Virus record (IMG/VR): IMGVR_UViG_3300042892_000676
Location: 1 to 22,353 of that record
DNA: 22,353 nt
Source: a virus
Direction: 5' to 3' (one strand)
Below are positions 13,579 through 22,353 of this stretch, one piece after another. The position numbers were made by a program, and so were the translations under genes. Below the pieces are notes generated by a model. The model was not told the origin of the DNA, searched no databases, and saw nothing but the letters and a program-made list of their open reading frames with translations. Position 1 is the stretch's first letter; each line of letters opens with the position of its first letter.

Positions 13579-14104
13579 AGAAGATCTAGTTAAGCACCTT
13601 GATCAAGTAAATCAAGTTGTAGAAGAATACCTAAAAGGCAATGACCCAACTGTAATATCAAAACAACTTGCAATACCAAGACAAAGAGTTGTGACATTAA
13701 TTAACGAATGGAAAGTCATGGCATCTGCTAATGATGCTATTCGTGCCCGTGCTAAAGAGGCACTTGCTGCTGCAGACACACATTACAGTAAGTTGGTTTC
13801 TCGTACATACGAAGTTATTGATGAAGCATCCATGACTAATAACCTTAGCGCAAAGACTGCTGCAATTAAACTTGTAATGGATATTGAGTCTAAGCGTATT
13901 GATATGCTACAAAAGGCTGGTCTTCTTGAGAACAAAGAACTTGCAGAAGAAATGATGGAGATTGAGCGACGCCAAGAGGTTCTTGTTTTAATATTAAAAG
14001 ATATTGCATCTGAGTATCCACAGGTTCGTGATGAGATAATGCGTAGACTTTCTTCGTTTGCAAAAGACAACGAGGTGATTACGGTTGTCCACGACATTCA
14101 ATGA
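13568..14104 (+). CDS. Terminase small subunit candidate
   Basis: A 178-residue, almost wholly helical protein immediately upstream of terL. Residues 18-50 (VEEYLKGNDPTVISKQLAIP, then QRVVTLINEW) form an HTH suited to recognising packaging DNA. The centre (52-125) is a long helical oligomerisation region (ARAKEALAAADTHYSKLV, SKRIDMLQKAG), and the C-terminal part (126-178) is helical and charged. This domain order, the length and the 20-base overlap with terL match small terminase subunits. GGGAG lies seven bases before the ATG. The sequence is not diagnostic by itself; the call leans on position. Confidence 0.7.
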   Translation: MSTEEDLVKHLDQVNQVVEEYLKGNDPTVISKQLAIPRQRVVTLINEWKVMASANDAIRARAKEALAAADTHYSKLVSRTYEVIDEASMTNNLSAKTAAIKLVMDIESKRIDMLQKAGLLENKELAEEMMEIERRQEVLVLILKDIASEYPQVRDEIMRRLSSFAKDNEVITVVHDIQ

Positions 14105-15881
14105 TTTTCTTGAAGTGCTTAAAGATAACCATTTTCAAGAGACACCTGTAAATGCAAGAACATTTGTTGAGGGCGAAAAATACTTAGGTCAGCCTCCACT
14201 TTCTGATATTCAGTACGATATTGTAGAAGCAATGAGTCAGATATATCGCAAAGAAGATCTCATTGATATAATGGGAGAAGAAGAAGGCATAAGATACTTT
14301 GATAAATATACTAAGAATGAGATTATTCTGCAACTTGGCAAGGGATCTGGTAAAGACTTTGTATCTACAGTATCGTGTGCATATATTGTATATAAACTAT
14401 TATGTTTAAAAGACCCAGCAAAGTATTTTGGTAAGCCGTCAGGAGATGCCATTGACTTAATCAATGTGGCTATTAACGCACAGCAGGCTAAGAATGTTTT
14501 CTTTAAAGGTTTTAAATCAAAGATTGAAAAATCCCCATGGTTTGCTGGAAAGTATTATGCAAAAGCAGACTCAGTTGAGTTTGATAAGTCTATAACTGTT
14601 TACTCTGGACACTCAGAAAGAGAATCCCATGAGGGGTTAAACCTTCTTCTTGCAGTTCTTGATGAGATCTCTGGATTTGCATCTGAAGTTGGAACAGGTA
14701 ACGAACAAGGAAAAACTGCTGAGAATATCTACAAGGCTTTCCGTGGATCAGTAGACTCTCGTTTCCCAGACCTTGGCAAAGTTGTTTTGCTTTCATTCCC
14801 AAGATACCCAGGAGACTATATCTCAGAGAAATACGACGCAGTTGTTGCTGAGAAAGAAGTAATTGAAAGAACACACGAGTTTATTATTAATCCACTGCTA
14901 CCTGATACAGACCCAAACAATAAGTTTGAAATTTCCTGGGATGAAGACCACATCATCTCATACAAATACCCAGGAGTCTTTGCACTAAAAAGACCTACAT
15001 GGGAAGTAAACCCAACAAGACAGATTGATGATTTTAAGATTGCTTTTATGACTGACCTTGGAGATGCAATGATGCGCTTTACATGCGTACCAACTTTTGC
15101 TTCTGATGCATTCTTTAAGCAGCACGAAAAGGTTAGATCTTGTATGACACTTAGAAACCCTGTAGATAACTTTAGAAGGTTTGATGAAGCATTTAAACCA
15201 GATCCAACTAAGAAATATTATGTACACGCTGACCTTGCCCAGAAGCACGATAAGTGTGCTGTTGCTATTGCACATGTAGAAAAATGGGTAAACATACAAG
15301 TCATTAATAACTATGAACAAGTAGCACCAATTGTAGTAGTAGATGCAGTAGCATGGTGGGAACCAAAGATTGAAGGCCCAGTTAATCTTTCAGAAGTTAA
15401 ACAATGGATTCAGAACCTTAGAAGAATAGGGTTTGATATTGGAATGGTTTCCTTTGACCGTTGGCAATCATTTGATATTCAAAATGAACTAAAGCAAGTA
15501 GGAATGAATACTGATACTGTTTCTGTTGCTAAAAAACATTATGAAGATATGGCTATGCTTGTATACGAGGAAAGACTTGCTATGCCTGCAATTGATTTAT
15601 TATTTGATGAACTAACACAATTAAAGATTATGAAAAATGACAGAGTTGACCACCCCCGCAAAAAGTCAAAGGACTTGGCTGATGCTGTGTGTGGAGCAAT
15701 ATTTGGGGCAATATCACATACTCCAAAAAATATAGACACTGAAGTAGAGGTTCACACCTTTAAAGACAGACCAAAGACTCCAGAAGAGCAATTTGACCTG
15801 GATAGTCGCAATGTGATACAATATAAACCTAGCCAAATAAAAGACATCGAAGATTATTTGGATGGACTAAAAACACTATAA
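14085..15881 (+). CDS. terL: Terminase large subunit (packaging ATPase-nuclease)
   Basis: A 598-residue motor that pumps DNA into the prohead and cuts the concatemer. The ATPase domain has Walker A QLGKGSGKD (83-91), Walker B LLLAVLDEISGF (187-198) with catalytic E194, and a coupling-type segment KVVLLSFPRYPGDY (232-245). The RNase H-like nuclease domain carries D382 in YVHADLAQKHD, D458 in MVSFDRWQS, and D530/D533 in KDLADAV. The start is TTG 14085, since a stop codon lies nine bases upstream in frame and the next Met is at residue 50; GAGG at 14072-14075 provides the ribosome site. It is followed not by a portal gene but by a secreted-protein gene. Confidence 0.93.
   Translation: MSTTFNDFLEVLKDNHFQETPVNARTFVEGEKYLGQPPLSDIQYDIVEAMSQIYRKEDLIDIMGEEEGIRYFDKYTKNEIILQLGKGSGKDFVSTVSCAYIVYKLLCLKDPAKYFGKPSGDAIDLINVAINAQQAKNVFFKGFKSKIEKSPWFAGKYYAKADSVEFDKSITVYSGHSERESHEGLNLLLAVLDEISGFASEVGTGNEQGKTAENIYKAFRGSVDSRFPDLGKVVLLSFPRYPGDYISEKYDAVVAEKEVIERTHEFIINPLLPDTDPNNKFEISWDEDHIISYKYPGVFALKRPTWEVNPTRQIDDFKIAFMTDLGDAMMRFTCVPTFASDAFFKQHEKVRSCMTLRNPVDNFRRFDEAFKPDPTKKYYVHADLAQKHDKCAVAIAHVEKWVNIQVINNYEQVAPIVVVDAVAWWEPKIEGPVNLSEVKQWIQNLRRIGFDIGMVSFDRWQSFDIQNELKQVGMNTDTVSVAKKHYEDMAMLVYEERLAMPAIDLLFDELTQLKIMKNDRVDHPRKKSKDLADAVCGAIFGAISHTPKNIDTEVEVHTFKDRPKTPEEQFDLDSRNVIQYKPSQIKDIEDYLDGLKTL
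15793..15822 (+). promoter_or_regulatory. Sigma70-type promoter inside the end of terL
   Basis: TTGACC at 15793-15798 and TACAAT at 15817-15822 are separated by 18 bases; each hexamer matches the consensus at five of six positions. It is the best paired -35/-10 combination noticed in the window. Transcripts would start near 15829, giving a leader of about 70 bases for the secreted-protein gene at 15902. Confidence 0.5.
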
Positions 15882-15901
15882 ATAGAAAAGGAATACATTA
15901 A

Positions 15902-17080
15902 ATGAACTCATTTAAGAAAATCGCCCTAGCCATGGTTGCAGCCATGACTCTGGGCACAATCGTGGCAACGCCTGCAAACGCTGCTGTAATGACAGTCGCA
16001 GTAACTCTTGGAGCAAGTAACACAGATAAGTCATCTGCTTCAGCAATTGCTACGCCTGCTTCATTGCCAGTACCTGCAGACAACACAATTGACGTTGCTG
16101 ACGCACTAAAGTTTGTCGCAACAGTTGACACAGGAACAGTAGTTTCTGTAGTAGCAACAAATGCAACAATCGTGTCTGCACTACACACAACTGCTGCACC
16201 AGTAGGAGCAACATCAGGATCTTCATCTTTGACAGTTGCAACTGGTACAGGAACAACAGCAACTTTTTATGTCTACACAAAGACAACAGCAATTGGTACA
16301 GTTGTAATCACCAACGGTGGAACAACTCTTACTTACTACGTACAGGGTACTGCTGGTTTAATTAATAACCTAACAGTTTCTGCTCCAGTATCTGGTGCTG
16401 CTGGAACAAAGCAAGATATTTTAGTTACAGCAACAGACGTATTTGGCAACAAGGTGTCTGCACCAACTACTGGTACGTCAATTACTGCAACAGTATTTGC
16501 TGCAACAGCAACACTTGCTTCAGCAACAGCAACAACTGGTATTACACTTTCAGATTTTGGAGTTGCAAAGTTTACTGCAACGCTTCCAACAACTGGTACA
16601 CGAGCACTAATCATGTTTGCTCCAACAACTGCTGGCGAAGCAACAACTGCTGATGTAGTTGGTTTAACTGCTCGCACACTAGCACCTTTTGCAGAAATTA
16701 CAGTTCGTGATCTAGTATCAGAACTTGCTGCCGAAAAGTCTGCTAAGGATGCTGCACTTGCTGCTAAGGCAATTTCAGATGCTGCAGTCGTAAAGGCTGC
16801 TTCAGATGCTGTTGCTGCTAAGGCTGCTTCAGATGCTGCTCTTGCAGCAGAGAAGGCTGCTTCTGTAAAGGCACTTGCTGATGCAAAGGCTGTTTCAGAT
16901 AAGGCTGCACTTGATGCAAAGACTGCTTCAGATGCAGTTGTTCTTGCTAAGGATGCAACAATTGCTAAGTTAACAGCAGATAATGCTGCTGCACTTAAGG
17001 CAATTAAGACTGCTTTCAATGCACTTGCAAAGAAGTGGAATGCAAAGAATCCAAAGGCAAAGGTTACTTACATTAAGTAA
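15902..17080 (+). CDS. Secreted Ala/Thr-rich beta plus coiled-coil protein
   Basis: A 392-residue protein with a textbook Sec signal peptide: a basic start (MNSFKK), a hydrophobic core, and a signal peptidase site after ATPANA at residue 27. Residues 30-270 are Thr/Ala/Val-rich beta strands, probably two Ig-like domains (the second near NNLTVSAPVSGAAGTKQDIL, 174-193). Residues 270-365 are an Ala-rich coiled coil with repeated SDAA/ASDA units, and the end is basic (KKWNAKNPKAKVTYIK). Base composition is clearly more GC-rich and codon use more uniform (GCA, GCT, ACA) than in neighbouring genes, suggesting high expression or a different origin. A promoter lies upstream, AAAGGA before the ATG, and a strong terminator after. 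It could coat the host cell or the virion; no enzyme motif is seen. Confidence 0.75.
   Translation: MNSFKKIALAMVAAMTLGTIVATPANAAVMTVAVTLGASNTDKSSASAIATPASLPVPADNTIDVADALKFVATVDTGTVVSVVATNATIVSALHTTAAPVGATSGSSSLTVATGTGTTATFYVYTKTTAIGTVVITNGGTTLTYYVQGTAGLINNLTVSAPVSGAAGTKQDILVTATDVFGNKVSAPTTGTSITATVFAATATLASATATTGITLSDFGVAKFTATLPTTGTRALIMFAPTTAGEATTADVVGLTARTLAPFAEITVRDLVSELAAEKSAKDAALAAKAISDAAVVKAASDAVAAKAASDAALAAEKAASVKALADAKAVSDKAALDAKTASDAVVLAKDATIAKLTADNAAALKAIKTAFNALAKKWNAKNPKAKVTYIK
16736..16965 (+). repeat. Degenerate repeats coding for the Ala-rich coiled coil
   Basis: Short recurring units built on AAGGCTGCTTCAGATGCTG (exact at 16793-16811 and 16820-16838) encode K-A-A-S-D-A-type residues of the coiled coil. 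The units are irregularly spaced and stay in frame. They look like within-gene expansion and not a mobile or CRISPR repeat. Confidence 0.6.
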
Positions 17081-17095
17081 TTAGTCCAACAATTG

Positions 17096-17127
17096 GGGGG
17101 ATTGGCTTAACGCTAGTCCCCCTTTTT
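17096..17127 (+). terminator. Rho-independent terminator
   Basis: An 11-bp stem (17096-17106 paired with 17112-17122, including two G-U pairs) closes a TTAAC loop and is followed by TTTTT at 17123-17127. It stands 16 bases after the stop of the secreted-protein gene and isolates that gene's transcription from the AT-rich operon downstream. Confidence 0.9.
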
Positions 17128-17156
17128 GTGGAATAAAATAATATAAAAATTGTATA

Positions 17157-17171
17157 TGATATAATTATAAT
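17157..17171 (+). promoter_or_regulatory. Extended -10 promoter, leaderless start of the accessory operon
   Basis: TGATATAAT (17157-17165) is an extended -10 element; a second TATAAT follows at 17166-17171, directly before the ATG at 17172. From the first box the expected transcription start falls on or beside that ATG, giving a leaderless mRNA. The stretch 17130-17260 is extremely AT-rich and lies just after a terminator, so this is the probable operon promoter. Confidence 0.55.
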
Positions 17172-17261
17172 ATGGCAATAAAATATTTTGTGTATAAAGT
17201 TATATTTAAAATAAAAAATATTTTTAAGAAAAATAAAAATAAGAATAGGTTCATATACTAA
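17172..17261 (+). CDS. 29-residue cationic leader peptide or small protein
   Basis: The frame runs from ATG 17172 to TAA 17259-17261. It encodes 29 residues: a short hydrophobic/aromatic start (MAIKYFVYKVIFKIKNIF) and a Lys/Asn-rich tail (KKNKNKNRFIY), giving an amphipathic, strongly cationic peptide that could lie on a membrane. It lies six bases behind an extended -10 box and its stop overlaps the start of the SGNH gene (TAATG), so it is either a real microprotein or a translated leader that couples ribosomes to the next gene. In such AT-rich DNA a chance frame is possible, but the double coincidence of promoter and stop-start overlap favours translation. Confidence 0.45.
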   Translation: MAIKYFVYKVIFKIKNIFKKNKNKNRFIY

Positions 17262-18256
17262 TGAACCCTCTATTGGCAATGATTGATGGTTATGAAACCG
17301 ATGAAGACTATTCAATGGCTAGTAAAAGATATAGAAATCTACTTTTAAAAAATACTCTTACAAGATATATAAATATAAACACAACGAGATTTGGACAAAA
17401 CAGGATAGACAATATCTTGGTAGATCCAAAAACAGAATATTCTATAAATAATTTTGGATATAGAGATGTTGACTGGATTGAAAAAGCAGAAATACTTGCA
17501 GTTGGTTGTTCAAATACCTGGGGCTATGGAGTTCCTGTAGATGGAAGATGGACAAATATTTTAGGTGAAAGAATTAATAAAGAAATTCGAAACCTATCAT
17601 TTCCTGGAGGGTCCATAAATGACTTAGTGGCTAAATCATTTGAATATTTTAAAATATTTGGTAACCCAGAAATTATGTTATGTTTGTTTCCAGATCCTTT
17701 TAGATTACGTCTACCAATTAAAAAAAATATAACTAAAGAGTTTAGACTTAATAAAGAAGATAGTAAGAATAATCTATCTATCCCTGATTTAACTTTTGGA
17801 GATATACAACTTGATGTTCATCCAGAACCAATTTCACAAAGAAATAAATATATTAAAAGACCTTATACTTATAGAGAGATATTGCCATTAGAGGTTCCGC
17901 TATTTTTTTCTATGCAAGCAATACACTTATTAGAGCAATACTGCAGATCAAACAATATAAAACTTATCTGGTCATCTTGGCATGTTGATACAGTAAATGC
18001 TTTAACTAATGATAAAGAAAATATATTTAGTGATGTTGTTTTTAATAAAGATTTAGTTATTGGTCATTATTTAAATAATATAAATGAATTAGAAAATAAA
18101 GAATTTGATGAAGACTGTCATAAAGAATATGAAAATTATTTTAAACACTGTTTTCATATTGGTGGTGATGTTGAAGATGGACTTGACCAGGCACACCCAG
18201 GAGTTCATAAACATATTCATATTGCAGAAGGATTTTATCAGGAAATGAATAAATGA
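17261..18256 (+). CDS. SGNH/GDSL hydrolase-like protein (first copy)
   Basis: A 331-residue protein with the block order of SGNH esterases/acyltransferases. Block I is LAVGCSNTWGYG (79-90), with Ser84 as candidate nucleophile. Block II is NLSFPGGSIND (111-121). Block V is DQAHPG (309-314), with D309 and H312 in the D-x-x-H arrangement. Residues 1-70 form a mixed lead region. There is no signal peptide, so it acts inside the cell. Such enzymes remove or add acyl groups on sugars or lipids. It is coupled to the peptide upstream (TAATG) and overlaps the carbamoyltransferase start (ATGA), implying they work together. It is much more AT-rich than the replication genes. It is only distantly similar to the third gene of the cassette, with which it shares the block I pattern. 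Confidence 0.7.
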   Translation: MNPLLAMIDGYETDEDYSMASKRYRNLLLKNTLTRYININTTRFGQNRIDNILVDPKTEYSINNFGYRDVDWIEKAEILAVGCSNTWGYGVPVDGRWTNILGERINKEIRNLSFPGGSINDLVAKSFEYFKIFGNPEIMLCLFPDPFRLRLPIKKNITKEFRLNKEDSKNNLSIPDLTFGDIQLDVHPEPISQRNKYIKRPYTYREILPLEVPLFFSMQAIHLLEQYCRSNNIKLIWSSWHVDTVNALTNDKENIFSDVVFNKDLVIGHYLNNINELENKEFDEDCHKEYENYFKHCFHIGGDVEDGLDQAHPGVHKHIHIAEGFYQEMNK

Positions 18257-19674
18257 TAATTTTAGGAATTAACGAAACTTCCCACGACGCATCTGTATCT
18301 TTAATTAAAGATGGAGAAATACTTTTTGCGGGACATGCAGAAAGATATAGTAAACAAAAGAATGATTGGTATAACAACAAAGATATTATCTTAGATGCAT
18401 TAAACTATGGAACACCAGACTACATTGCTTACTATGAGAAGCCTTGGCTTAAAAGATCTAGAATAATGTTAAAGGGTGGCGCAGCAGACTGGAAGCCAAA
18501 CATTCCTTTAGATGTTCCAGTACACTACTTTAAGCATCACTACTCTCATGCAGCAGCAGGATACTACACAAGCGCATTTAACGATGCTGTAATTGTTGTA
18601 TTAGATGCAATAGGAGAATATAACACTTCAACTATTTGGGTTGGTGAGGGCGACAAGATTAAACTTAAGTATAAGCAAAACTATCCAGTTAGTTTTGGAC
18701 TATTTTATTCTGCTTTTACACAACTTATTGGACTTATGCCAAACCAAGAAGAATACATTATGATGGGAATGGCTGCCTATGGTGACTGGAAGCGTTACTA
18801 CAAAGAGGTTGATGAATATTTTCCTTCATACGATAAACAAAAATATAATTTTCATAAAGGAATTAATGACTGGGGAATGATAATTACAGAGCAAGATAGG
18901 TTTGATATTGCTGCAGCAGTACAAGTAGTGTATGAGCAAAGATTAAATCAGTTTATGCGTATGGCAAAGTCCCTTACTGGTAAAAAGAACTTAGTATTTA
19001 TGGGTGGTTGTGCCCTTAACTCTTCAGCAAATACATTGCTATGGAATATTTTTGATATGATTTGGATCATGCCTAACCCAGGAGATGCTGGTAGTTCTTT
19101 AGGTGCAGCAGCAGCCTTGTACGGAAAGCACCTTGACTGGAAGACTCCGTATCTTGGCTATGATCTTGGAGGAGAGTATCCTGTTCAGCAAATTGTGGAC
19201 GGTATATTAAAAGATGGAATCGTAGCAGTAGCAACAGGCAGAGCAGAATACGGTCCAAGAGCATTGGGCAATCGAAGCATTCTTGCTGACCCAAGAGATC
19301 CAAATATAAAAGATAAAGTTAATTTAATTAAACAAAGAGAGTTGTTTAGACCATTTGCTCCAGTAGTTATGGAAGAGTGTGCGTCTAAGTGGTTTGATAT
19401 GGATTTTGCAAGCCCTTATATGCAATATACAGTTAAGTGTCTTCAGCCAGATAAAATACCATCTGTAGTTCATGCTGATGGAACCTCAAGAGTTCAAACT
19501 GTAAATAAAGATCAACATCGTGGGTTATGGAGAGTTCTTAATAAGTTTTATATTGAAACTGGTGTTCCAATACTATTAAATACAAGCCTTAATATTAAAG
19601 GACAGCCACTACTAAATGATGAAAATGATATAGAAAAATGGCAAAAAACTTATAACAATTTAGTGATAAGATAG
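18253..19674 (+). CDS. NodU/TobZ-type O-carbamoyltransferase
   Basis: A 473-residue enzyme predicted to move a carbamoyl group from carbamoyl phosphate, through carbamoyl-adenylate, to a hydroxyl of a sugar or other metabolite. The N-terminal Kae1-like domain shows GINETSHDAS (5-14), KHHYSHAAAGYYTSAF (94-109) with metal-binding His residues, D118 in VLDAIGE, and MGGCALN (250-256). The C-terminal YrdC-like part has GPRALGNRS (334-342), FRPFAP (365-370), HADGTSRVQ (407-415) and LLNTSLNIKGQP (441-452). All landmark motifs are present, although the protein is shorter than many family members (about 550-600). Its base composition is nearer the phage core than its two AT-rich SGNH neighbours. ATGA overlap with the upstream gene shows tight co-expression. 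Confidence 0.9.
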   Translation: MIILGINETSHDASVSLIKDGEILFAGHAERYSKQKNDWYNNKDIILDALNYGTPDYIAYYEKPWLKRSRIMLKGGAADWKPNIPLDVPVHYFKHHYSHAAAGYYTSAFNDAVIVVLDAIGEYNTSTIWVGEGDKIKLKYKQNYPVSFGLFYSAFTQLIGLMPNQEEYIMMGMAAYGDWKRYYKEVDEYFPSYDKQKYNFHKGINDWGMIITEQDRFDIAAAVQVVYEQRLNQFMRMAKSLTGKKNLVFMGGCALNSSANTLLWNIFDMIWIMPNPGDAGSSLGAAAALYGKHLDWKTPYLGYDLGGEYPVQQIVDGILKDGIVAVATGRAEYGPRALGNRSILADPRDPNIKDKVNLIKQRELFRPFAPVVMEECASKWFDMDFASPYMQYTVKCLQPDKIPSVVHADGTSRVQTVNKDQHRGLWRVLNKFYIETGVPILLNTSLNIKGQPLLNDENDIEKWQKTYNNLVIR

Positions 19675-19678
19675 TTTG

Positions 19679-20518
19679 ATGATTAATAAAAAATCAAACT
19701 TAAAAACAATTCCAGATATTTTTGTAAATAGGTCTTTAGAAGAAATGAGTCAGCATGCTATGCCTAAAACAGAAGCAGACTCTGTTTTTATTGAATATAA
19801 ACTAAACTCTCAAGGATATAGGTGCAATGAGTTTAGCAATCAAGAAATTTTAACTTTGGGATGTTCTCAAACAGAGGGACATGGAATGCCTATAGAACTT
19901 ACATGGCCTTATCTAATATCACAAAAAATGAATAAGGATTATATTAATTTAGCAAAAGGAGGAGAAGGAATACAAGCACAAATAGTTAAAGCATTTCAGT
20001 TTTTTAAAGAATTTTATCATCCAAAATATATATTTGCAGTATTTCCAATAACAAGGCTGGAAGTTCCTTTGATAAACCTTAGAGTAAAAAATGAAGGTAA
20101 TCATGAACGTGTAAAGTCTAGAGAAAATATAGGCAAAGCCATGCTATCTAACAAATTACTTGAAAAATTTTCTAAAGAACCACATATAGTAGAAAATATT
20201 TTGCCAGAAGAATTTGCAATTTTTTATAATATGTTATTTTTAAAAATGTTTATTCAGTATTGCAAATCAAATAATATAATATTATTGTGGACCTACTGGA
20301 ACGATTCGTCTTTAGAGCAATACTCATTTAAAGATTTTACAGATACATATTTTGAGACTAGTTCGCCAGAAAATAATTGTCACTTAGAGTTTTCAGATAA
20401 TAAATTTTTTGAGTACGCAGCAGACTATGAGTATTGGCATCCTGGTCATTGGGCATTTCACCAACAAATGCATATGGCAAATTCAATATATAGTACACTT
20501 TTTAAACAAACAGAATGA
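19679..20518 (+). CDS. SGNH/GDSL hydrolase-like protein (second copy)
   Basis: A 279-residue protein; the start is taken at ATG 19679, with the TTG directly before it (19676) as an alternative. Block I is LTLGCSQTEGHGMP (58-71) with candidate nucleophile Ser63, block II is NLAKGGEG (90-97), and block V is YWHPGHWAFHQQMH (252-265) with His254. The Asp usually three residues before the catalytic His is not in place; D249 lies five residues before it, so activity may be altered. The core order (GCSxT, N-L-x-x-G-G, C-terminal HPG) matches the gene at 17261, showing an SGNH pair around the carbamoyltransferase. It starts within five bases of the carbamoyltransferase stop, has a weak ribosome site and is very AT-rich. 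Confidence 0.65.
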   Translation: MINKKSNLKTIPDIFVNRSLEEMSQHAMPKTEADSVFIEYKLNSQGYRCNEFSNQEILTLGCSQTEGHGMPIELTWPYLISQKMNKDYINLAKGGEGIQAQIVKAFQFFKEFYHPKYIFAVFPITRLEVPLINLRVKNEGNHERVKSRENIGKAMLSNKLLEKFSKEPHIVENILPEEFAIFYNMLFLKMFIQYCKSNNIILLWTYWNDSSLEQYSFKDFTDTYFETSSPENNCHLEFSDNKFFEYAADYEYWHPGHWAFHQQMHMANSIYSTLFKQTE

Positions 20519-20565
20519 TATAAGTGACTGGGAAAGACCTATAACTTTAAAATGCAGTAATAAAA

Positions 20566-20574
20566 TGGTATAAT
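20566..20574 (+). promoter_or_regulatory. Extended -10 promoter for the large secreted protein
   Basis: TGGTATAAT at 20566-20574 is identical to the element at 706-714. The predicted transcription start is near 20581, giving a leader of about 30 bases. The -35 position carries only a weak TTTAAA. The element sits in the 93-base gap after the SGNH gene. Confidence 0.6.
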
Positions 20575-20581
20575 AACCCTA

Positions 20582-20596
20582 ACAGACATTGTCTGT
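20582..20596 (+). promoter_or_regulatory. Perfect 15-bp palindrome at the transcription start (operator candidate)
   Basis: ACAGACA-T-TGTCTGT is a perfect seven-base inverted repeat around one central base, beginning where the transcript should begin. It would suit a dimeric repressor blocking the promoter, or form a 5'-terminal RNA hairpin just before the ribosome site GGGGGAAGG (20601-20609). CCCTA and TAGGG flank it, extending the dyad with a two-base bulge. Confidence 0.5.
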
Positions 20597-20611
20597 CCTA
20601 GGGGGAAGGTA

Positions 20612-22353
20612 ATCAAAAAACTAATACGAATAGCAGCAGCCACATTATTAGCATTTGGCTGGCTTCTTATTTCCCCAGAAGGTGCCCACTCTGATGATCC
20701 CCTCACAGTAGCAGCCCAAGAAATACAAGACCTTAACGATAGCATTGACGACCTTGGCTACAAGGATGAGTTCATATTTTTAATTGAAGAGGCAGAAGAT
20801 AAGTATGCCCTTGCAGTATCTGCAAAAGAAACCCAGACCCAAACCTCTACCACATATGATGCATCTCTTGTCTTAAAAGCCACGGCGGGAGAAGAAAAAG
20901 CATCAGCCCAAACAGCCGTAGACGAACAAACAGTAGTAGTGGCAACTGCATTAGAAGATAAGAATGATGCACAAGATGCTCTTGATATAGCCAATATAAA
21001 CCTTTCAACCCAGTCTGGCTCAATGACTGATATCACAACAGAAGATTTTAATAATAATAGTATAAATAATGGTAGACAAAATTGGCCAGCAGGTGCTCTT
21101 AGTATATTTATAGTTGGATCAATAGACTCAAATGGAAACTCTGTTGGCACTGAGGTTGCAATAACTTCAACAAATAATGGTGGATATTTTTATGGAAGCG
21201 ACCAGGTTCCAAGTAATGATTATACAAACCCACCAGCGTTGCATCTTCAAGCCCCAAGTCAAACACTTGCTTTTCGTGTTGCCAATTGGAGTGAGGGAGC
21301 AGTTACTCAGGTTAAATTTTCCGTTTATGCAAAAAATGGAGATGCCACTGCTATGGTCAGGCATACAGATGGAACAACATATAATTTTACAATTCAAAAC
21401 AATGTTAATTCAGATTATCCAGGATTTGTCCATCAAGAGGTTTTAGATGCGCTTCCTGGTAAACAAATTCATGAGATATATTTTTGGGCAGACAACAATG
21501 ACTGGTACATTATTGATAATGTAATTATAAAAACTATTATAGGAAGTGTTCCAAGCCAAGAATCAAGTGCGGCGGTTGCCTCAGCACAGGCTGTATATAA
21601 TGATAAATTAAATATTTACAACCAAGCAGTTTCAACATTAAATGCTTACAATCAAACCTTAACTAATAAAACAACTGAGGCTGAGAATGCAAGTTTAAAT
21701 GTTGTAACGGCATTACAAAATAAAAATAATGCTATTAGTGCATACGATCAAGCAATTAATAATGTTAATAGTGCAATTGATGATGCATGGCGTTGCTATG
21801 ACGAGCAACTACAAAGAGAAATTCAATCTGCTATTGCCCAAGCAGCAGCCAACGCTGCAGCAAATCAACCCACCCCAGAGCCAAGTCCTGAACCAACTGC
21901 TGAAGAGCCACCTACTCCTGAGCCAAGTCCAGAACCTACTGCTGAGGAACCATCAACTCCAGAACCAAGTCCTGAGCCTACGGCAGAAGAGCCTCCTACG
22001 CCAGAGCCTTCTCCAGAGCCTACAGTGGACCCTACAGAGGAGCCTACACCTGAGCCTACCCCAGAGGAACCACCAACACCTGAGCCTTCTCCAGAACCAA
22101 CTACAGAAACAACTGAAGAGCCTGCTCCAGAACCTTCACCAGAACCTGGCCCAGAGCCAAAGCCAGAAGAGAACCCTTGGACTGAACCAGATGTAGTAAT
22201 TGAAGATGAGGTATTAGCAGCCCTTGTTCCTGAAAAAGGAACTGGAACAGAAGAAGATCTATCTAATGTTATTGCTAACCTTACAAGCAGTGATAATAAG
22301 TTAGTTACTCTTTCCCCTGAACAAGTAACAGCAGTTAGCCAAACACTTAGAGC
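20612..22353 (+). CDS. Large secreted coiled-coil/Pro-Glu-rich protein, 3' end outside the window
   Basis: The frame is open from about 20612 to the window edge (580 codons and counting). No ATG, GTG or TTG lies in frame near the start. The best initiation point is ATC 20612, just after GGGGGAAGG, which gives a clean signal peptide (KKLIRIAAATLLAFGWLLIS, then GAHS). Next come a coiled coil rich in Ala, Glu and Lys (about 30-135), a beta-sandwich-like domain (about 150-312, with Trp/Asn-rich strands such as EIYFWADNNDWYIIDNVI), a second coiled coil (about 315-418), Pro/Glu repeats (420-521) and a further domain cut by the window. The layout resembles surface-anchored or fibrous proteins. Either ATC initiation or one sequence error (ATG to ATC) explains the start. 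Function unknown; surface display is inferred. Confidence 0.7.
   Translation, partial: MKKLIRIAAATLLAFGWLLISPEGAHSDDPLTVAAQEIQDLNDSIDDLGYKDEFIFLIEEAEDKYALAVSAKETQTQTSTTYDASLVLKATAGEEKASAQTAVDEQTVVVATALEDKNDAQDALDIANINLSTQSGSMTDITTEDFNNNSINNGRQNWPAGALSIFIVGSIDSNGNSVGTEVAITSTNNGGYFYGSDQVPSNDYTNPPALHLQAPSQTLAFRVANWSEGAVTQVKFSVYAKNGDATAMVRHTDGTTYNFTIQNNVNSDYPGFVHQEVLDALPGKQIHEIYFWADNNDWYIIDNVIIKTIIGSVPSQESSAAVASAQAVYNDKLNIYNQAVSTLNAYNQTLTNKTTEAENASLNVVTALQNKNNAISAYDQAINNVNSAIDDAWRCYDEQLQREIQSAIAQAAANAAANQPTPEPSPEPTAEEPPTPEPSPEPTAEEPSTPEPSPEPTAEEPPTPEPSPEPTVDPTEEPTPEPTPEEPPTPEPSPEPTTETTEEPAPEPSPEPGPEPKPEENPWTEPDVVIEDEVLAALVPEKGTGTEEDLSNVIANLTSSDNKLVTLSPEQVTAVSQTLR
21869..22176 (+). repeat. In-frame Pro/Glu-rich tandem repeats (42-base unit)
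   Basis: Three full 14-codon units (PTPEPSPEPTAEEP and close variants) start at 21869, 21911 and 21953, followed by shorter degenerate units to about 22176. Silent differences between units show they are not a recent exact expansion. The encoded segment is expected to be an extended, rigid, acidic spacer, as in wall-spanning or stalk regions of surface proteins. Confidence 0.85.

Follow-up and report, generated by a model that had tools for sequence, protein, structure and literature searches.

We analyzed the region behind the terminase large subunit gene (terL) in a stretch of viral DNA of 22,353 bases, here referred to as the window, which is one whole IMG/VR record (IMGVR_UViG_3300042892_000676) and probably a fragment of a genome. 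Comparison with related loci separated two elements in this region. The first one, terL-secA-secB, is an accessory backbone and is conserved in a lineage of phages with relationship to Stanwilliamsviridae. The second one consists of a predicted O-carbamoyltransferase gene (CT) between two genes for SGNH-like enzymes (sgnh1 and sgnh2). Comparison with empty sites shows that these three genes are a moron-type cassette of 3.4 kb, inserted into the spacer that separates secA from secB and flanked on either side by a copy of a AATAAAATnnTATAA promoter box. The best explanation as a whole, to which we assign a probability of roughly 0.4, is that the enzymes of the cassette modify a glycan of the infected cell, that SecB is displayed on this cell and that the benefit is exclusion.

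From each large scan only the 80 best-matching loci were used, so that the counts given here describe close relatives. In the backbone secB is located about 108 nucleotides (nt) 3' of secA, and in most of all loci compared the secA-secB spacer was about 106-116 nt long. A spacer of about 3,535 nt, filled by the SGNH-CT-SGNH genes, was found in the near-identical contigs of the window and in locus L002, and among the loci compared sgnh1-CT-sgnh2 occupied this site in the lineage of the window only. According to the empty sites, the insert has the terminator of secA on its left and the promoter of secB on its right (Table 1). A TGATATAAT box precedes sgnh1 and an exact AAAATGNTATAAT is located 5' of secB at 20562-20574; by eye, the left GGAATAAAATAATATAA and the right GTAATAAAATGGTATAAT are identical at 14 of 17 positions. 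The element TGNTATAAT was present in each of the 54 distinct empty spacers (54/54) and also flanked several other inserts at both ends. The terminator with its 12-bp stem after secA and the boxes 5' of sgnh1 and secB bear out an earlier description of this DNA made from the sequence alone (here named the sequence-only reading), which had listed a terminator and promoters.

In other phages the same spot carried a sulfotransferase-like gene with an HIPRTGG motif (Pfam 0.0017, under the cut-off) or a cupin/JmjC-like gene (Pfam JmjC_2, 2.5e-6). The empty sites and the other genes at this spot amount to moron behaviour at a preferred site, and the cassette is inserted relative to close relatives, has its own promoter and is flanked by a terminator. 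Recombination may have taken place at the flanking boxes. The window itself contains a sulfotransferase-like gene at 1889-2521, with the end of the tail module on one side and the helicase on the other (Pfam Sulfotransfer_2, 4.9e-4, slightly under the cut-off), and genes similar to it are the alternative secA-secB insert in other phages.

To test the co-occurrence of both elements, 80 loci were picked by terL alone. In most of those with enough downstream sequence, secA was located 19-25 nt 3' of terL and was followed by secB. No CT was present in the available downstream sequence of these 80 loci, and a single one carried an SGNH-like gene. The great majority of relatives had secA-secB without CT or SGNH-like genes, which in turn were found elsewhere without secA or secB alongside. 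The sequence-only reading had described one island of five genes, SGNH-CT-SGNH flanked by secA and secB, and had named conservation of this neighbourhood as the check and lack of co-occurrence as its refutation. The five genes after terL are real, as coordinates, domain matches and substitution ratios confirmed. However, loci selected by terL, CT and sgnh2 separate the backbone from the cassette: the CT-SGNH sub-unit co-occurs and the five genes do not, so that a five-gene system fails on the criterion set by that reading itself.

Ratios of non-synonymous to synonymous substitutions (dN/dS) were about 0.06-0.08 for CT, 0.14-0.21 for sgnh2, 0.24-0.27 for secA and about 0.42 for sgnh1, the latter measured against a distant relative; all are rough values because dS was high in several pairs. 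The range of about 0.06-0.42 in the genes tested indicates purifying selection and not chance frames.

CT carried the Pfam domains Carbam_trans_N (1.5e-34) and Carbam_trans_C (5.4e-53), both above the cut-off, and matched the phage family phrog_1601 over its full length (2.2e-104). It also aligned with NovN, GdmN and TobZ, which are O-carbamoyltransferases of solved structure. In the alignment with NovN the HHxxH motif (HHYSH/HHLAH) and the downstream Asp of the Kae1-like domain (VLDAIGE/VMDGAGE) were found. The predicted activity is that of an O-carbamoyltransferase of the NodU/CmcH/TobZ type.

The start of CT overlaps the end of sgnh1 in ATGA and a gap of 1 nt separates CT from sgnh2, so that the three genes look like one operon. 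In a non-redundant set of 60 CT copies (<97% DNA identity) an SGNH-like gene was located within 300 nt of CT in 43, never on the opposite strand. When loci were selected by sgnh2 instead (n=29), CT was nearby in 22, mostly directly upstream and including copies of only 43-60% identity; the remaining seven had no CT in the available sequence. The nearest CT of the phage collection, from marine virus AG-345-D19 (41% identity), was immediately preceded by two tandem SGNH-like genes, the second of which matched only weakly (2.4e-4). In the Kyanoviridae loci that were tested, namely those of Phage C48C1, cyanophages and HTVC008M, CT had no such genes beside it. CT and the SGNH-like genes form a unit of their own. 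This pairing recurs from the lineage of the window as far as a marine virus, which suggests that the two enzymes are inherited together and may have a joint product. In the open-licence literature no paper joining carbamoyltransferase and SGNH in phages was found. Around CT, two further observations were made. A phosphate-binding (PstS-type) gene is located near CT in some relatives (L039:11220-12422, Pfam PBP_like_2, 6.2e-43), and about six SGNH-like genes, most of them around CT, were present in G014:58981-78541, the record of L079, which suggests a local family expansion.

The SGNH-like family is very divergent, with about 21-48% identity to sgnh1. In the alignment of the family (A1) Gly82, Ser84, Gly116, Pro136, Arg148, Cys228 and His312 were invariant and Asp303 was conserved in at least 90%, so the block I Ser, the block II Gly and the block V Asp and His are present. 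Profile matches of sgnh1 in the PDB were SGNH esterases. Its AlphaFold2 model had a mean predicted local distance difference test score (pLDDT) of 69.5 with a core above 90, and TesA/GDSL enzymes were the best fold matches. PHROGs gave one weak match for sgnh1, to a family of unknown function. We refer to the enzymes as SGNH-like because the block III Asn is not conserved; they may be either hydrolases or acyltransferases. By eye, sgnh1, CT and sgnh2 lack a signal peptide; the simplest interpretation is that the enzymes act on a precursor in the cytoplasm.

Table 1. Position of the genes and signals in the window
Feature	Position	Strand	Basis or remark
terL, terminase large subunit (backbone)	14085-15881	+	PHROG terminase 1.3e-15
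secA, exported protein (predicted)	15902-17080	+	Sequence; 10-member alignment; position after terL
Intrinsic terminator after secA	17095-17123	+	12-pair stem, loop of 5, T run; counterpart in empty sites
Left promoter-like box GGAATAAAATAATATAA	17130-17146	+	Comparison with empty sites, box scan
sgnh1, SGNH-fold enzyme (predicted)	17261-18256	+	Alignment A1, PDB profile matches, fold match
CT, NodU/TobZ-type O-carbamoyltransferase (predicted)	18253-19674	+	Pfam domains, phrog_1601, solved-structure relatives
sgnh2, second SGNH-fold enzyme (predicted)	19676-20518	+	27% identical to sgnh1; starts at TTG, or at an ATG 3 nt further
Right promoter box GTAATAAAATGGTATAAT, extended -10 type, 5' of secB	20557-20574	+	Empty-site comparison
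AGGGGGAAGG, probable ribosome-binding site of secB	20600-20609	+	Kept before ATC/ATT/ATA in relatives
secB, open at the window end	20612-22353	+	ATC start inferred; helical repeats, head, stalk
SecB head, CBM-like beta sandwich (predicted)	21026-21538	+	AlphaFold2 and fold matches

SecA has the architecture of an exported protein, with a signal peptide recognized by eye at its N-terminus, a beta-rich middle, an Ala/Lys-rich helical C-terminal part and a basic C-terminus without an anchor. Its profile gave matches at chance level only in the PDB. SecB comprises 706 amino acids in the longer contig L003, and in the window its gene runs from about 20612 past the end. The order of its parts is signal peptide, helical repeats, beta head, helical repeats, a PEPSPEP (Pro/Glu) stalk and a C-terminal anchor. 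The anchor is encoded past the window end and was seen in longer contigs, where RRNK, GMRR or TRR comes after a hydrophobic C-terminus; the hydrophobic segment before RRNK scores 2.06 (Kyte-Doolittle). This architecture shows SecB as a predicted exported and membrane-anchored protein with an exchangeable head of carbohydrate-binding type on a Pro/Glu stalk. The sequence-only reading had called both proteins secreted coiled-coil proteins, and signal peptides and helical regions were indeed found in both; the exchangeable beta-domain and the C-terminal anchor of SecB have to be added.

Most SecB homologs carry a PA14 head; PA14 was found in five of the eight scanned and under the cut-off in one more (Pfam, best 6.8e-7). 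The head in the window differs: SecB of the window had no PA14 and no Pfam match above the cut-off. AlphaFold2 gave a beta sandwich (pLDDT 63) with CBM29, CBM61 and CBM16 as the nearest folds, and a search with the head by sequence gave no match. Cry-protein chains among the fold matches were taken as a common lectin-like jelly roll only. The non-PA14 head of the window type was present in 24 loci; the lineage of the window and about 19 other loci carry it.

No AUG start of secB was seen in about 70 distinct upstream sequences. Its start seems to be AUC, AUU or AUA after AGGGGGAA(A)GG, or else UUG, and several phages have an in-frame UAA directly 5' of it. The conserved non-AUG start is a separate point on translation control.

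No match to secA, secB or sgnh1 was found among GenBank phages, and secA, sgnh1, sgnh2 and SecB of the window gave nothing above the cut-off in Pfam, NCBIfam and PADLOC. A reading as a defence system had no PADLOC support. Many relatives encode a subtilase-like exported protein 3' of secB (L084:5693-6565; Pfam Peptidase_S8, 2.5e-6). In the same direction the longer contig L009 carries a proteasome/HslV-like gene (14997-15590), a 2-oxoglutarate (2OG) oxygenase gene (18158-18814) and an APS-kinase-like domain fused to a cytidylyltransferase-like one (19341-20099).

TerL shared 55% identity over its full length with TerL of Streptomyces phages of Stanwilliamsviridae, and the gene order from helicase to terL is that of the Streptomyces phages Gilson and StarPlatinum, so that the phage of the window is apparently related to this family. 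In Gilson and StarPlatinum HNH, tRNA and hypothetical genes come after terL; judged by this gene order, an accessory region at this position is the ordinary Stanwilliamsviridae arrangement. Hence, the window lacks no portal or capsid gene behind terL, where according to the sequence-only reading one might be expected; in Gilson the portal occupies about 14-15.6 kb and terL follows at 62.4 kb, so that the portal lies about 47 kb before terL. Bacterial genomes scanned with CT and with the secA alignment contained no relative, which is a weak negative, as only close relatives can be found with the pattern method.

According to the favoured explanation, CT would act in the cytoplasm and, consuming carbamoyl phosphate and ATP, place an O-carbamoyl group on a sugar nucleotide or a lipid-linked glycan precursor. 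The SGNH-like enzymes would remove acyl groups from the same glycan or transfer them on it, and their diversification would set the position changed. The surface glycan of the infected cell would thereby be altered, and the SecB heads would attach to glycan at the surface. As to the benefit, it is most likely that related phages would be kept from readsorbing or superinfecting in the course of the infection. What is inferred here comprises the glycan as the target, carbamoylation together with the removal or transfer of acyl groups, the display at the surface and the benefit, which would be exclusion or receptor change. The glycan-tailoring type of the enzyme operon and the architecture of SecB as an envelope-displayed protein agree with the surface-glycan part of the sequence-only reading, except that the genes are not one joint island.

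Several points weigh against this explanation. No conserved Asn of block III (GxND) was found in alignment A1, where Pro144 and Arg148 are conserved instead. No glycosyltransferase or polysaccharide cluster adjoins the cassette within the window. The phages appear lytic, so that a surface change would be of use for a short time only. Assignments of signal peptides, coiled coils and anchors were made by eye and with a Kyte-Doolittle scan instead of dedicated predictors. Finally, the host is only presumably actinobacterial, from TerL similarity and common gene order, and the substrate of the enzymes is only putatively a glycan.

Other explanations were considered as well. CT and the SGNH-like enzymes could tailor glycans of the virion, i.e. 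glycosylated tail or capsid proteins, and not the host surface; CT is indeed near tail-fibre and structural genes in the cyanophages S-SSM7 and S-CAM1. We regard this as unlikely, as the tail module of the window stops near 1.4 kb and the cassette is located about 16 kb beyond it, between two genes for exported proteins and without an adjoining glycosyltransferase. Action on small intracellular molecules, which NovN, GdmN and TobZ carbamoylate, or on modified DNA bases is rather improbable: base-modification genes were not seen in the annotated set of the window, and the annotated CT of cyanophages and pelagiphages is set among sugar-nucleotide, glycosyltransferase and 2OG genes.

It is likewise doubtful that SecA and SecB, rather than being exclusion proteins, serve in lysis or release or are associated with the virion, e.g. 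for wall binding or as a tether. Holin-like, CHAP endolysin and secreted protease-like genes do follow in the same stretch of relatives, whereas an exchangeable sugar-binding head on a long stalk would be unexpected for lysis proteins and a structural-gene neighbourhood is lacking. The view of the sequence-only reading that all five genes constitute one surface-modification system draws on their adjacency and common orientation in the lineage of the window; given that secA-secB mostly occurs without CT or SGNH-like genes, and these also without adjacent secA or secB, we consider it very improbable.

What is known of phage genes that change the host surface comes mostly from temperate phages infecting Gram-negative bacteria (O-antigen conversion). 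An actinophage-related lineage with a modular, apparently common version would offer a testable locus for phage competition at the cell surface. On a wider and rather speculative view, which we think is probably not correct in full, secA-secB would be an undescribed and widespread surface-display system, with an anchored stalk, an exchangeable sugar-binding head and an AUC/AUU/AUA or UUG start, beside a promoter-flanked slot for swapped glycan-tailoring enzymes of carbamoyl, acyl, sulfo and hydroxyl types; head and enzymes would jointly decide which phages re-infect.

The kind of element (moron, surface modification) is known, and the present composition appears undescribed as judged from Pfam, PHROGs, NCBIfam, PADLOC, the phage collection and open-licence papers. 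CT of the window has both domains in common with NodU/CmcH/TobZ and with the phage 'Nol-like carbamoyltransferase' (phrog_1601) of cyanophages and pelagiphages, but it differs from its relatives in the phage collection by an identity of only 28-41%, a shorter N-terminal part and the SGNH-like partners. The SGNH-like enzymes resemble SGNH/GDSL hydrolases (TesA, lipolytic G-D-S-L family) in fold, block I Ser, block II Gly, Asp and His; they differ by a GCSxT block I, by conserved Pro/Arg instead of the block III Asn and by their great divergence. Phage morons and the T4-type mobile regulatory cassettes, reportedly described by Arbiol et al. in 2010, share with the window extra genes between terminator and promoter, boxes at both insert ends and an empty locus in relatives, whereas the T4-type cassettes belong to another phage group and have another sequence.

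For SecB, the closest parallel in kind is a protein of Cryophage, which is also phage-encoded, exported, equipped with PA14 and variable between close phages, and for which its authors suggest superinfection exclusion (PMC7468147). The Cryophage protein uses type IX secretion in a Bacteroidetes-type host, while SecB has a signal peptide and a membrane anchor. CwpV of Clostridioides difficile, a repeat-bearing cell-surface protein, blocks phage infection in a superinfection-exclusion-like manner (PMC4737114); it is host-encoded with other domains and serves as an analogy only. O-antigen conversion by phages is a precedent for the surface change proposed here (PMC7168646).

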